From IMG/VR virus record IMGVR_UViG_3300025411_000061, positions 1 through 28,651 of that record: a stretch of 28,651 bases of DNA; one strand, 5' to 3'. Below the pieces are notes generated by a model, which was given only the letters and a program-made list of their open reading frames with translations, had not been told where the DNA came from and made no database searches. This DNA is from a virus. Below are positions 6,454-19,181 of the stretch, piece by piece; positions within the stretch are counted from its first letter, which is position 1, and each line of letters opens with the position of its first letter. Position numbers and translations under genes: made by a program.

Positions 6454-7650
6454 TTATGCTCCTTTGACGCACATGACTTGTTTGAGAATATGAACCACTT
6501 CGACTAAGTCTGTTTGGTTCGCCATGACTTGATCAATGTCTTTGTAGCTACTAGGAATTTCGTCAATAACTGACGCATCTTTGCGGCACTCGACACCTTC
6601 GGTTTGCTTGATGAGGTCATCAATGCTGAAACGCCTTTTAGCCTCAGCTCTGGACATACTGCGTCCTGCCCCATGCGAACAAGAACAATAGGATTGAAGC
6701 TCACCTTTTCCACGGACAATATACGATTTTTGACCCATAGAACCCGGAATAATTCCCAAGTCTCCTGATCTCGCACGAATAGCTCCTTTACGGGTAACCC
6801 AGAGATTTCGTCCAAAGTGATGCTCCTTTTCGACATAGTTGTGATGGCAATTGATCGCCTCTTGGGTAATCGTGAATTCTTTTGGAATATGCTTTTTGAG
6901 CGCTACCAAAACAACTTCCATCATCAACTTTCGATTTTCCAAAGCATAGTCTTGCGCCCACTGAACGGCTTCCATGTAGTCATTGAAATCTTCAGTGTCC
7001 TCAGGCAAATAGGCCAAGTCTGAATCAGGCAAGCTGATAAAGAATTTTTCCATTTGACGCTTGGCTTTTTCGATGTAGTGCGACCCAATCATGTTGCCAA
7101 TGCCACGAGAGCCAGAGTGAAGCATGACCCACACATCTTGATTCTCATCAATGCAAAGTTCAATGAAATGATTGCCTGATCCAAGTGTGCCAAGTTGGGG
7201 CGCGGCTTTTTTCCAGTAATCACCGGCAATCTCGTTGAGGTTTTCGCAAAGATTGAATGATGTTTTAGGAAGGCGACCTAACCGATTGTTGACCTCTTCA
7301 TCTCGCTGTAAACGACCACCTGCACCCAGCGGGATGTCGCGCTCAATTTGGGCGCGAATATCTTTCAAGGATTCGGGCAAGTCGGAAGCTTTTAATGAGG
7401 TTCTGACAGCATTCATGCCACAACCAATGTCAACACCTACAGCCGCAGGAATGATGGCTTTCTCGGTGGCAATAACAGTGCCCACGGTAGAGCCTTTTCC
7501 TGCATGAACATCAGGCATGCAAACCACGCCATGATGGTTGATAAAAGGTAGACGCGCCAAATTCTTAAGTTGAGTTAGCGCCTCTCCTTCTACATCGTCA
7601 GTCCAAATTTTGATTGGGCGCGAGCCCTCTTCTTGAATGACTTGTTTCAT
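6454..7650 (-). CDS. rtcB: RNA-splicing/tRNA-repair ligase RtcB
   Basis: This 398-residue protein is full length for the family and has every hallmark. They are MPDVHAGKGSTVGTV (45-59), GVDIGCGM with metal-binding D74 and C77, LGSGNHFIEL with H161, HSGSRGIG with H178, NCHHNYVEKE (267-276), the GxIPGSMG loop, SHGAGR with the nucleotidylated H326, and a C-terminal VKG. RtcB joins RNA 2',3'-cyclic phosphate or 3'-phosphate ends to 5'-OH ends using GTP and Mn2+. In a phage this would reseal tRNAs cut by host anticodon nucleases; the tRNA cluster in this window fits that, by inference. It starts 2 bases after the SSB-like gene with no good ribosome site, so translation is probably coupled. No archease gene is seen. 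Confidence 0.97.
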   Translation of the reverse strand: MKQVIQEEGSRPIKIWTDDVEGEALTQLKNLARLPFINHHGVVCMPDVHAGKGSTVGTVIATEKAIIPAAVGVDIGCGMNAVRTSLKASDLPESLKDIRAQIERDIPLGAGGRLQRDEEVNNRLGRLPKTSFNLCENLNEIAGDYWKKAAPQLGTLGSGNHFIELCIDENQDVWVMLHSGSRGIGNMIGSHYIEKAKRQMEKFFISLPDSDLAYLPEDTEDFNDYMEAVQWAQDYALENRKLMMEVVLVALKKHIPKEFTITQEAINCHHNYVEKEHHFGRNLWVTRKGAIRARSGDLGIIPGSMGQKSYIVRGKGELQSYCSCSHGAGRSMSRAEAKRRFSIDDLIKQTEGVECRKDASVIDEIPSSYKDIDQVMANQTDLVEVVHILKQVMCVKGA

Positions 7651-8377: not shown

Positions 8378-8384
8378 CCACAAA

Positions 8385-8403
8385 TCTAATTTTGTGTTAG
8401 ACT
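8385..8403 (+). promoter_or_regulatory. Operator/promoter element O1 before the Cro-like gene
   Basis: The inverted repeat TCTAA-N7-TTAGA (8385-8401) has a -10-like TAGACT (8398-8403) overlapping its right arm. Close copies occur at 13770, 14679 and 19163, with diverged forms at 16846 and 21331. It lies 28 bases before the Cro/YdaS-like gene, so autoregulation is likely. The -35 is weak. Confidence 0.65.
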
Positions 8404-8431: not shown

Positions 8432-8632
8432 ATGAACCTAAAAAAATATTTCGAGGAAGAGCCCTACGGGGCCAAGAAAGAGATGGCTGAGTACCTCGGC
8501 ATCACCCCAACATGGTTGGGATTGTTATTGAGGAAAGCTCGCCGACCTTCAGCAGAGTTGGCAAAGAAGATCGAGAAGGCAACGCAAGGACTGGTCACAG
8601 CAAAAGAACTACGCCCCGATTTATTTGACTGA
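8432..8632 (+). CDS. Cro/YdaS-like helix-turn-helix regulator
   Basis: This 66-residue protein resembles the Cro/YdaS antitoxin-like DNA-binding family. It has a helix-turn-helix at about 14-36 (AKKEMAEYLGITPTWLGLLL), a KARRPSAELAKKIEKAT segment, and the ending ELRPDLFD that is typical of YdaS-type proteins. Such proteins bind short inverted repeats as dimers. It has a good ribosome site (AAAGGAG) and sits just downstream of operator O1, in the divergent region facing the leftward operon. It is therefore the best candidate for the protein that reads the repeated TCTAA-N7-TTAGA operators. Whether it represses or activates cannot be seen. Confidence 0.85.
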   Translation: MNLKKYFEEEPYGAKKEMAEYLGITPTWLGLLLRKARRPSAELAKKIEKATQGLVTAKELRPDLFD

Positions 8633-8651: not shown

Positions 8652-9455
8652 ATGAAAAGAACGCTGAAATTGGTACCCATCAACACCGTGAGGATCGATG
8701 GAGACACCCAATCAAGAGTAGAGATGGACGCCAACTGGATTCAGAAGATCGTTGACGATCTGAAGAATGACATGGAGTACGACCCGATTGAGACACGCTT
8801 TGACGGTTCGCACCACTGGCTATCAGATGGCTTCCATCGCTACCTTGCGTACAAGCAACTTGGCGTGAAGGAAATCAATGTCAACTATTTGCCCGGCTCG
8901 CAGTTTGATGCCCAAGTGGACTCATACGGCGCCAACGGCAAACACGGTAGAGCTCGCACACGGGCCGACAAAGAGCGCAGTGTTGAGAACGCCATTAACA
9001 ACCCACTGCTCAAGGACAAGAGCAACTACGAGATCGCCAAAATCTGCGTGGTATCTCAGCCCTTTGTGGCTTCAGTGCGTGACCCAGAGCGCAAAAAGAA
9101 GCAGGCAGAGAGCGTCAAGAAGCACTTCGAGAAGAAGATTCAAGAGAAACAAAATACTAATTTAATTAGTAGTGAAAAACCAACAGATAGGGAAAATCCC
9201 TACGCCGGTGAGGCGCCCTCAGACGAGGAAATCAAGGCGGCAGAGTTGGCGCTGATTGCTGACCAAGAGGCCATGTACAAGCTCTTGGACTCAGACGATG
9301 CACTGGCGACAGCACACGAAGAAATCAAGCGCCTGAACTACTTGAATGCTCAACTAGAGACACGCCTTCATGGACTCATGAATGAGCGCAACGAGGCCGT
9401 GAAAATGGTCAAGAAACTTCAAAAAGAAAATGACAAACTGAAAGCCAAAAAATGA
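8652..9455 (+). CDS. ParB-like protein (ParB/Srx domain, HTH, coiled coil)
   Basis: This 267-residue protein has an N-terminal ParB/sulfiredoxin-like domain with the signature D59-G-F-H-R63 (LSDGFHRYLAYKQLG). An HTH-like segment follows at about 123-143 (NYEIAKICVVSQPFVASVR), then a basic linker and a long C-terminal coiled coil (about 215-267). ParB-family domains bind nucleotides and, with the HTH, palindromic DNA sites; some phage relatives act as nucleases or regulators. Its linker coding region (codons 168-174) contains one copy of a palindrome that recurs three more times in the genome. AGGAG precedes the ATG, and its stop overlaps the helicase start (ATGA). There is no parA-like ATPase nearby. 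Confidence 0.85.
   Translation: MKRTLKLVPINTVRIDGDTQSRVEMDANWIQKIVDDLKNDMEYDPIETRFDGSHHWLSDGFHRYLAYKQLGVKEINVNYLPGSQFDAQVDSYGANGKHGRARTRADKERSVENAINNPLLKDKSNYEIAKICVVSQPFVASVRDPERKKKQAESVKKHFEKKIQEKQNTNLISSEKPTDRENPYAGEAPSDEEIKAAELALIADQEAMYKLLDSDDALATAHEEIKRLNYLNAQLETRLHGLMNERNEAVKMVKKLQKENDKLKAKK
9155..9171. repeat. Palindrome copy 1 (TACTAATTTAATTAGTA), inside the ParB-like gene
   Basis: A perfect 17-bp palindrome around a central T lies in frame within the ParB-like linker region. The 30 bases that follow resemble those following copy 2 (AAAA-x-CAACA then TAGGG), so the repeated unit is longer than the palindrome. Confidence 0.85.
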
Positions 9456-13482: not shown

Positions 13483-13769
13483 GATCTCATACTTTGTCGC
13501 TGAATCGGACGCGCACTGGCGGTAGCGATCAGGGACAGCTCTACTACGGGAAAGATGTTGAGATAGAGCAAAGGGTGGCGAAGTGAGTGCCCTTACATCG
13601 AACGACTGACGGGTCAGAAACTCCGACGGGTATCTGTGAAGGCTCATCCTCTCTTGGGAGGGCTGAGTCTGTCCACCTCTGGGTATCAGGAAAGAGACAG
13701 TAAGGTAGAAATAAAGAAAGGGTAATTTTGATTAAGGTCAAAAGACCTTCCATTTTCCCTACGCAAAGT
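13483..13769. other. Gene-free stretch with small inverted repeats
   Basis: No frame with a ribosome site or plausible protein is seen on either strand. Short inverted repeats occur: AAGGG/CCCTT (13571-13594), CTGA/TCAG near 13605-13616, CTCA/TGAG around 13643-13667, CTGTC/GACAG (13669-13700), and a 6-bp hairpin AAGGTC-AAAA-GACCTT (13734-13749). The last is followed by a T-rich but interrupted tract and could be a weak terminator. It may be a third RNA or the 5' flank of the O2 promoter. The evidence is weak. Confidence 0.4.
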
Positions 13770-13791
13770 TCTAATTCCGTGTTAGACTTTT
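13770..13791 (+). promoter_or_regulatory. Operator/promoter element O2
   Basis: TCTAA-N7-TTAGA (13770-13786) overlaps -10-like TAGACT (13783-13788), 27 bases before the oxygenase-like gene. It shares 15 of 17 bases with O1. No good -35 is seen, which suggests dependence on an activator or a modest promoter. Confidence 0.65.
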
Positions 13792-14459: not shown

Positions 14460-14683
14460 AATACCGCATTCGCTACAACAAAACCGCAGGCCAACCGGGG
14501 CGCGGCACCGTTGATCACAAGTGGCGCGTGTTCGATGAGAACAACAAAGAGATCATCTGTAAAGGGGTGAAGATTCAATCCGTAGCATGGACAGAGATGG
14601 ATCCAAACGGTGTGGATTGGAACTTCGTCACAGAAGGAAAGTTGATAGTTGAACGAGAGACTTCAACTGTTGTCATTGTCTAA
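14456..14683 (+). CDS. Conserved small phage protein, unknown
   Basis: This 75-residue protein begins MKYRIRYNKTAGQPGRGTVD. I associate this opening with a conserved phage hypothetical, often found near 2OG oxygenase genes in aquatic phages (memory, unverified). It looks beta-rich. It is translationally coupled to the oxygenase by ATGA with GGAGGTG upstream. Its stop codon falls within operator O3. Confidence 0.75.
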   Translation: MKYRIRYNKTAGQPGRGTVDHKWRVFDENNKEIICKGVKIQSVAWTEMDPNGVDWNFVTEGKLIVERETSTVVIV

Positions 14684-14697
14684 TTCTGTGTTAGACT
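14670..14697 (+). promoter_or_regulatory. Promoter with operator O3
   Basis: -35 TTGTCA (14670-14675, 5/6) and -10 TAGACT (14692-14697) are 16 bases apart. The inverted repeat TCTAA-N7-TTAGA (14679-14695) fills the spacer, so a bound dimer would cover the promoter. It drives the small-gene operon from 14738. Confidence 0.7.
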
Positions 14698-16216: not shown

Positions 16217-16510
16217 ATGAAGCACTTAAAAGAAACCGAAGTCTGGCAAAAAGAGAAGCTTGCGCGCGACCACCGGCTCGCCGTCATGATGATGATTCGT
16301 CAGCAGATCGACATGGTTGGTCAACTCATGGAGCGGCACAAAGAGCTTGTGAAGGCGCCTTTGTCCTACAACATGTGTGTTGGCCTGCTTGAGCAATTGC
16401 AGGGGCATTCGTTCGCGGCATTCAACGAAACCGGCGCCGCCGCACCTTACACACCCGACGGCAACTCAACTCCTTATTTCAAATTCCCGAATGAGATCGT
16501 TGGCCTATGA
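16217..16510 (+). CDS. Small helical protein, unknown
   Basis: This 97-residue protein has a charged, Met-rich helical N-terminus (KLARDHRLAVMMMIRQQIDM) and a Pro/Asn-rich C-terminal third (PYTPDGNSTPYFKFP). AAGGAG lies upstream, and its stop overlaps the HNH gene start (ATGA). No family is recognised. The overlap suggests co-expression with the nuclease. Confidence 0.7.
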   Translation: MKHLKETEVWQKEKLARDHRLAVMMMIRQQIDMVGQLMERHKELVKAPLSYNMCVGLLEQLQGHSFAAFNETGAAAPYTPDGNSTPYFKFPNEIVGL

Positions 16511-16779
16511 ACGGCAGTTACGACACGCTTGAAAAGAAGTGGGTGGGGCTCGTCAAAGAACAGCCCTGCTCAGTCTGTGGACAGCCGGGGCCCAGTGATG
16601 CACACCACATCGAGCAAGGTGAGCACTTTACGGTGGTGGCCCTCTGCAAGTCCTGCCACCAAGGCTCGAACATGGGATGGCATGGGAACAAGCGCGCGTG
16701 GGCTATTGCCAAGATGGATCAGCTCGATGCCCTGAATGTGACCATCCGGCATGTGTTTAAGTTCCTGACTACTAATTAA
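16507..16779 (+). CDS. HNH/Ref-like small nuclease
   Basis: This 90-residue protein has C21-x2-C24 (CSVCGQPG), D31-A-H33-H34, then C47-x2-C50-H51 and GWHGNK (57-62). The set matches Ref-like/HNH zinc nucleases such as the phage P1 recombination enhancement function, which cuts DNA together with RecA, but is limited to that core. Whether it needs RecA cannot be told. The last codons and stop lie within palindrome copy 2. Confidence 0.75.
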   Translation: MNGSYDTLEKKWVGLVKEQPCSVCGQPGPSDAHHIEQGEHFTVVALCKSCHQGSNMGWHGNKRAWAIAKMDQLDALNVTIRHVFKFLTTN

Positions 16780-16787
16780 ATTAGTAG
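16769..16787. repeat. Palindrome copy 2 (19 bp) at the end of the HNH gene
   Basis: CTACTAATT-A-AATTAGTAG is a perfect 19-bp palindrome and the longest copy. It overlaps the HNH stop codon (16777-16779). It is followed by the CAACA and TAGGG blocks shared with copy 1, and by an AT-rich stretch to about 16835. Confidence 0.88.
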
Positions 16788-16836: not shown

Positions 16837-16864
16837 TTGCAAGACTCTAACTTAGAGTTATACT
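16837..16864 (+). promoter_or_regulatory. Promoter with diverged operator O5
   Basis: -35 TTGCAA (16837-16842) and -10 TATACT (16859-16864) are 16 bases apart. The spacer holds TCTAA-C-TTAGA (16846-16856), a compressed form of the operator family, followed by GTTATA. It drives the gene at 16907 and its followers. Confidence 0.7.
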
Positions 16865-18785: not shown

Positions 18786-19126
18786 TGAGTATCGAAAAAG
18801 ACATCGAAAAGGTCGGGGAGCTTCTGAAAAGGGTTGACCCGCTCATTCAACGGTACTTCCACCAGATCATGGATAAGCATGGACACGATGTATGCCTGTC
18901 TGTGGCGGCAAATATCAGCACCACCCTCATGACCCTATCCATCCTCATCGTGGAGCGCCGTGGGGGCGAAATAGACCCCTTCATGCACATCATGATGAAG
19001 GAGGTCAAACACAAGTTCGACAATGCCCATGCATCGCAGGCAACGCAGGACTTGCTCGACAAGGTCATGAATCTGGGCCAGTTTGGCGACTGGAACACCT
19101 GCAGGCCACCGCCGACCAAACATTAG
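18785..19126 (+). CDS. Small helical phage protein, unknown
   Basis: I use the ATG at 18785, whose A is the last base of the previous stop, giving 113 residues; a GTG start three bases upstream is less likely. The protein is helical with a hydrophobic core (CLSVAANISTTLMTLSILIV) that could be a buried or membrane helix, and a Pro-rich end. It is the last gene before a promoter. The function is unknown. Confidence 0.7.
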   Translation: MSIEKDIEKVGELLKRVDPLIQRYFHQIMDKHGHDVCLSVAANISTTLMTLSILIVERRGGEIDPFMHIMMKEVKHKFDNAHASQATQDLLDKVMNLGQFGDWNTCRPPPTKH

Positions 19127-19150
19127 GGAAAGTACCTACAAAAATAAATG

Positions 19151-19181
19151 TTGACGACACAATCTAACTTTGTGTTAGAAT
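19151..19181 (+). promoter_or_regulatory. Promoter with operator O4 (best inverted repeat)
   Basis: -35 TTGACG (19151-19156) and -10 TAGAAT (19176-19181) have a long 19-base spacer. The operator TCTAAC-TTTGT-GTTAGA (19163-19179) is the most perfect copy, with 6-bp arms. The long spacer matches the one in the RNA B promoter. Confidence 0.75.

Follow-up and report, generated by a model that had tools for sequence, protein, structure and literature searches.

A phage ParB-like gene that carries the predicted DNA target of its own product in linker codons

The ParB-like gene and its in-gene palindrome

The window, by which we mean the whole stretch of DNA analysed, is a 28.6-kb virus record, from an aquatic phage, and contains a ParB-like gene with a palindrome inside its coding sequence. 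The features of this gene are as follows.

8652–9455, plus strand: ParB-like gene (sulfiredoxin/ParB fold, HTH and coiled coil), 267 aa, matching phrog_1033 ParB-like with E 5.9e-9
9024–9080, plus strand: HTH codons (residues 125–143)
9054–9062: start of the recognition helix, S135-Q136-P137, whose x1/x2 residues predict the site
9156–9197, plus strand: the only disordered segment (residues 169–182, pLDDT < 50), which hosts the palindrome
9155–9171, no strand assigned: in-gene 17-bp palindrome S1, TACTAATTTAATTAGTA, predicted to be bound by the ParB-like protein

The structure model (pLDDT 86) consisted of a ParB/sulfiredoxin fold, the HTH, a long helix, the disordered linker, and a coiled coil. 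Profile matches to 7o0n/7bnk (E 1e-6) identified the ParB/sulfiredoxin (ParB-CTPase) fold, and the best structural matches were KorB (8qa9_B, Z 11.9 over residues 4–169), Noc (11.8), and ParB (11.3), while Pfam ParB_N matched only three of 59 members. Across these 59 members, the P motif GxxR (Box II) was kept as G60-F-H-R63, with G60, H62, and R63 invariant and A66 nearly so, and Box III was divergent, reading N95..H98-G99 instead of ENxQR. The nucleotide specificity of ParB-like proteins is not predictable from sequence (PMC12704722).

The first-pass annotation had placed one palindrome copy in the linker region of this gene and paired it with a second copy. Both copies are real, S1 lying in the linker codons NTNLISS, and a doublet extends the pair to four exact copies of TACTAATTTAATTAGTA in the window (starting at 9155, 16770, 23640, and 23669), far above chance, as none was expected from 100 shuffles. 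The three further copies and the ORF overlapping one of them are listed below.

16507–16779, plus strand: HNH-like ORF, whose last codons overlap S2
16770–16786, no strand assigned: second copy S2, at the 3′ end of the HNH-like gene, syntenic in relatives
23640–23656, no strand assigned: third copy S3a, in the gap separating the large terminase gene (TerL) from the ORF after it
23669–23685, no strand assigned: fourth copy S3b, 29 bp from S3a

A promoter-like sequence (16837–16864) follows S2 at a distance of about 50 bp, and S3 directly precedes the ribosome-binding site of the next ORF. The 29-bp doublet after TerL was also found in three other phage lineages (G008, G032, and MW202545.1) and is thus common to four. 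The spacer of the doublet is inverted between the window (23657–23668, AGGGTTTCTACC) and MW202545.1 (L132, 49136–49147, AGTAGAAACCCG), which looks as if recombination between the palindromes had flipped it.

Conservation of the in-gene site among relatives

Relatives were fetched by protein and grouped into clusters with less than 90% identity to each other. Most of them, down to approximately 30–40% protein identity, have retained the palindrome at an equivalent position in the disordered linker that follows the HTH, and the gene keeps one or two copies there. A perfect 8/8 palindrome was present in the first 55 codons past the HTH in 44 of the 74 clusters, and a 7/8 one in five more; most in-gene palindromes lay at the floor of the synonymous-codon null (p about 0.0025). 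The sequence drifts through compensatory substitutions while the symmetry stays, as in TACTAATCCGATTAGTA, TACTAGTTCAACTAGTA, GAGTAATTTAATTACTC, GTGTAATCGGATTACAC, GTGCAGTTAAACTGCAC, and others.

Several apparent misses carried a variant instead: L177 has two copies of the even 16-mer GTGGAAGCGCTTCCAC, L183/L186/L187 have two of GTGGnAACAAyTCCAC, which is less symmetric, and in L161/L163/L164 the core is shortened. No clear in-gene site was seen in L167/L168 or L189, and Acidovorax phage AP1 reached only 6/8. In a distant clade (L199, L202, L206, L211, L221, and L229), palindromes of modest significance lay 7–8 codons after the HTH, and no further palindrome copies were found in these six loci. 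With the exception of the planctomycete pair L225/L227, the in-gene palindromes of the distant clade are leads only.

The planctomycete chromosome CP087563.1 contains two ParB-like genes with CTGCG..CGCAG palindromes in the gene and extra copies 6–7 kb downstream, at the following positions.

L225: 10413 and 16358–16430
L227: 10425 and 16441–16513

In L185, two sites 57 bp apart (2163–2236) were observed in a Thr/Ser-rich coding stretch of an upstream gene.

Selection on the DNA rather than on protein or RNA

If the palindrome is a DNA site, it should be kept beyond what codon choice needs, as had been proposed from the sequence of the window, and relatives with the same linker residues and synonymous loss of the palindrome would speak against it. 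Linker peptides of the form T-[NS]-x-[IT]-S were therefore picked by residues alone from 90%-clusters. Exactly palindromic codons were present in 26 of the 28 peptides, for each of which neutral codon choice predicts 0.2–0.6%, and the palindrome is accordingly kept beyond codon need. The search for synonymous loss returned the two remaining peptides, one being an overlapping out-of-register match and the other a single-base decay.

The in-gene copies are transcribed and translated, as an RNA hairpin or a protein-coding constraint in place of a DNA site would demand. However, pair 8, which lies beside the 1-bp centre, was complementary in 50 of the 52 in-gene sites with seven matching outer pairs; such a pair is unusable in an RNA hairpin with a 1-nt centre and therefore fits a duplex site. 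Furthermore, L173 and L184/L213 translate the same DNA, GTGTAATCsGATTACAC, in two different frames (GCNPITL and GVIGLHL/SVIGLHP, respectively), non-coding copies exist, and the site covaries with the recognition helix. The RNA hairpin was ruled out by the pair-8 and reading-frame tests, and a constraint on RNA or protein is hardly credible as the origin of the palindrome. The compensatory substitutions, the extreme codon bias, and the frame change in some relatives indicate that selection acts on the DNA.

The recognition helix and the site code

The code was read in the motif S-x1-x2-F-V, with which the recognition helix begins. After 18 relatives, and ahead of retrieval of the held-out set, the rules for P/S and Q/K were fixed, and new sites were found by symmetry alone. 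Residue x2 predicted position 6 of the site in 38 of 38 clusters, with P going together with A (18 clusters) and S or T with G (18 and two clusters, respectively), over about 11 independent switches on a tree built without the HTH and the linker. The held-out P/S cases followed the rule in 20 of 20 instances. Residue x1 predicted position 3, where Q corresponded to C in 23/23 and K to G in 5/5, one L119 half-site having A. Sister pairs in which protein and site switch together include L117/L216, L118/L121, the window/L156, and L123/L125.

Since x1 and x2 predict the half-site, it is very likely that the protein recognises the palindrome in its own gene, and we regard this cognate binding, as read from sequence covariation, as close to certain. 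The earlier suggestion that the gene carries the target of its own ParB-type product thereby gains support, and the 38/38 covariation with about 11 switches points in silico to a palindromic site recognised by the ParB HTH, as in ParABS systems. By its motif, x1 appears to match residue 173 of ParB/Noc, where R173/Q173 sets specificity (PMC7383237).

Dispersed sites in phage genomes

Only full-core sites were counted in the phage genomes, as a loose 13-bp pattern gave non-zero controls. Most of the longer records searched contained about 3–12 matching sites over 50–57 kb, for example eight in MW202545.1 (57 kb, circular), 11 in G043, and 12 in G047, with none in the reversed-pattern controls. 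The sites recur in the parB linker, where the HNH gene ends, in the gaps separating TerL and portal from their respective next ORFs, and within a tail-fibre gene, in which the encoded residues follow the HTH class of the ParB (TSQTS, TNQIS, or SNQIT). Nearly all dispersed sites agree with the HTH class found in the phage that carries them, the discordant ones being an extra G024 site (TACTAAT in an SQS genome) and the overlapping in-gene site in L125. In three of five genomes, the sites were spaced somewhat more evenly than expected by chance (p 0.02–0.03; per-genome p 0.02–0.21), which is weak evidence as the syntenic genomes are non-independent.

In the 22 records of 40–57 kb, a ParA (PF13614) was found in none, with 14/14 controls detected, and no integrase was found in these records. 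The family combines parS-like sites, predicted to be read by the HTH and dispersed over the genome, with the lack of ParA, as is characteristic of an orphan ParB.

Proposed function and rival explanations

In the mechanism that we propose, the 17-bp palindrome would be the parS-like target of the protein whose gene hosts it. An orphan ParB with a KorB/Noc/VirB-like fold would load as dimers at the dispersed sites free of ParA, as KorB, Noc, and VirB do, and we consider this reading probable. In loading, the protein may act as a clamp gated by nucleotide and spread outward from several entry points, steps to which we give about even chances. The loaded ParB could coat or organise the phage genome, control transcription over a long range, or both. 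The in-gene site would tie loading or feedback to the gene, in line with the self-loading or feedback that the first-pass annotation had put forward, and its placement would let site and specificity travel together. A bolder and rather doubtful extension is a genome self-recognition system of virulent phages, in which the ParA-less ParB, with its target inside its own gene, would mark its own genome at many dispersed loading sites. Protein and site would switch together rapidly (about 11 switches among relatives), perhaps so that related phages in a co-infection do not bind each other's sites, much as plasmid incompatibility works.

If the protein were a plain transcription factor with each site acting on the adjacent promoter only, the distance of S2 from its promoter-like sequence and the location of S3 at a ribosome-binding site would be accounted for. 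However, no promoter-like sequence was found at S3, S1 and the tail-fibre site are among those inside genes, and up to 12 sites are dispersed over a genome, which leaves the local operator possible but unlikely. The bacteriophage lambda origin lies inside the O gene, with the sites of the O protein in its own linker codons, and a replication origin within an initiator gene that recruits the replisome would likewise place the sites of a DNA-binding protein in linker codons. The order of genes in the window (YdaS-like, ParB-like, helicase), the primase nearby in MW202545.1 and AP1, the two in-gene sites 24–42 bp apart in some relatives, and a local AT content of 59% versus 48% overall would suit such an origin. 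Unlike lambda O, the protein has a different fold and equivalent sites occur throughout the genome, late and tail-fibre genes included; in addition, the window has a single in-gene site, and the cumulative GC skew of MW202545.1 makes no turn at the gene (minimum near 25 kb, maximum near 50 kb). The origin is therefore weaker than the orphan ParB reading, and we hold it improbable.

The centromere of a ParABS partition system in a plasmid-prophage would likewise pair a ParB fold with an in-gene palindrome. In Bacillus subtilis, a parS lies inside spo0J, and the phage gene resembles chromosomal ParB/parS in having a parS-like site within parB itself; it differs in the absence of ParA, in a site that diversifies fast with the HTH, and in the half-site TACTAAT, which is unrelated to the chromosomal parS. 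Phage N15 has palindromic ParB-type sop centromeres dispersed over its genome, which is the likeness to the sites described here, but N15 has SopA (a ParA) and a plasmid prophage. The lack of ParA and of integrase in the 22 records makes partition unlikely and a virulent life style likely, and the protein shows no visible ParA-binding motif of the LGR/KGL type. ParABS partition was rejected on the missing ParA and integrase, and we consider its chances very small.

Comparison with known systems

Among the systems for which the orphan ParB reading has close counterparts, the best structural match is KorB with its OB operators on plasmid RK2, where the ParB fold is used for long-range regulation from palindromic sites that are both promoter-proximal and promoter-distal (PMC11790492). 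Unlike KorB, no KorA partner was identified here, the site sequence is unrelated, ParA is absent, and the phage site lies inside the gene as well as in late and tail-fibre genes. Noc with its NBS sites in Bacillus is likewise a ParB paralogue that lacks ParA and whose sites are scattered across the genome, and its specificity is set by Q173 of the recognition helix (PMC7383237), apparently x1 in the phage protein. In contrast to Noc, the setting is a phage and not a chromosome, the half-site is different, and no membrane or division role is evident. Shigella VirB with virS is a protein of ParB type that has become a regulator independent of ParA and has parS-like sites (PMC10770331); it differs in that the phage protein has no known silencer and has an in-gene site.

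Neither orphan ParBs in phages nor dispersed parS-like sites are new as kinds. Orphan ParB-like proteins are common in phages, and little is known about the DNA that they target or the roles that they play (PMC12704722). We found no report in the open-access literature of a phage family regularly carrying the target in its own linker codons together with a recognition code, and a literature search on StrR-type activators with in-gene sites gave nothing usable. As the gene itself reveals the target, it becomes readable from sequence for a whole protein family. The two-residue recognition code, switched many times, offers a natural series for the coevolution of protein and site, and the phages offer a directly testable ParA-free ParB system in which a DNA site overrides the protein sequence, even in a tail-fibre gene.

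Flanking elements and other features of the window

The 30-nt flanks of the first two copies had been aligned as a conserved, directional unit of about 45 bp, in which a TAGGG block was included.

9188–9202, no strand assigned: TAGGGAAAATCCCTA block after S1 (the block noted as TAGGG), not a constant part of the site

The AAAA, CAACA, and TAGGG blocks are indeed present in both flanks. The conserved unit did not hold up, as the flank alignment was not above the AT-matched background in 11 of 13 genomes and TAGGGaaagtCCCTA occurs upstream of other promoters. In the window, 11% of AT-matched segments matched the flank of copy 1 equally well or better, and the shared-flank test gave p < 0.05 in only two of the 13 genomes, L116 and MW202545.1, whose clear shared flank was GCGnAAAAnCAACACC. 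The TAGGG..CCCTA block is a separate element, seen again ahead of other promoters with no palindrome present. In this phage group, TAGGGaaagtCCCTA was observed 20–40 bp upstream of promoters, independent of the ParB-type site, at the following positions.

Window: 19124–19138
L114: 19137
L161: 17326
L113: 16932

A second operator-like family, TCTAAnnnnnGTGTTAGA, was observed at several operon promoters, among them the one for the YdaS-like gene (8432–8632), and is likely the operator of this YdaS-like small HTH protein. Its members in the window are listed below.

8383–8401
13768–13786
14677–14695
19161–19179

A Betaproteobacteria-1 sRNA (RF02932, 92.6 bits) was located at 13498–13614 beside tRNA-Pro, tRNA-Asn, and tRNA-His. 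On the basis of this match and of a relative in a Betaproteobacteria MAG, the host of the window phage is likely betaproteobacterial. Finally, an ORF on the minus strand (6454–7650) encodes a putative RtcB-type RNA ligase, as judged by a sequence motif.
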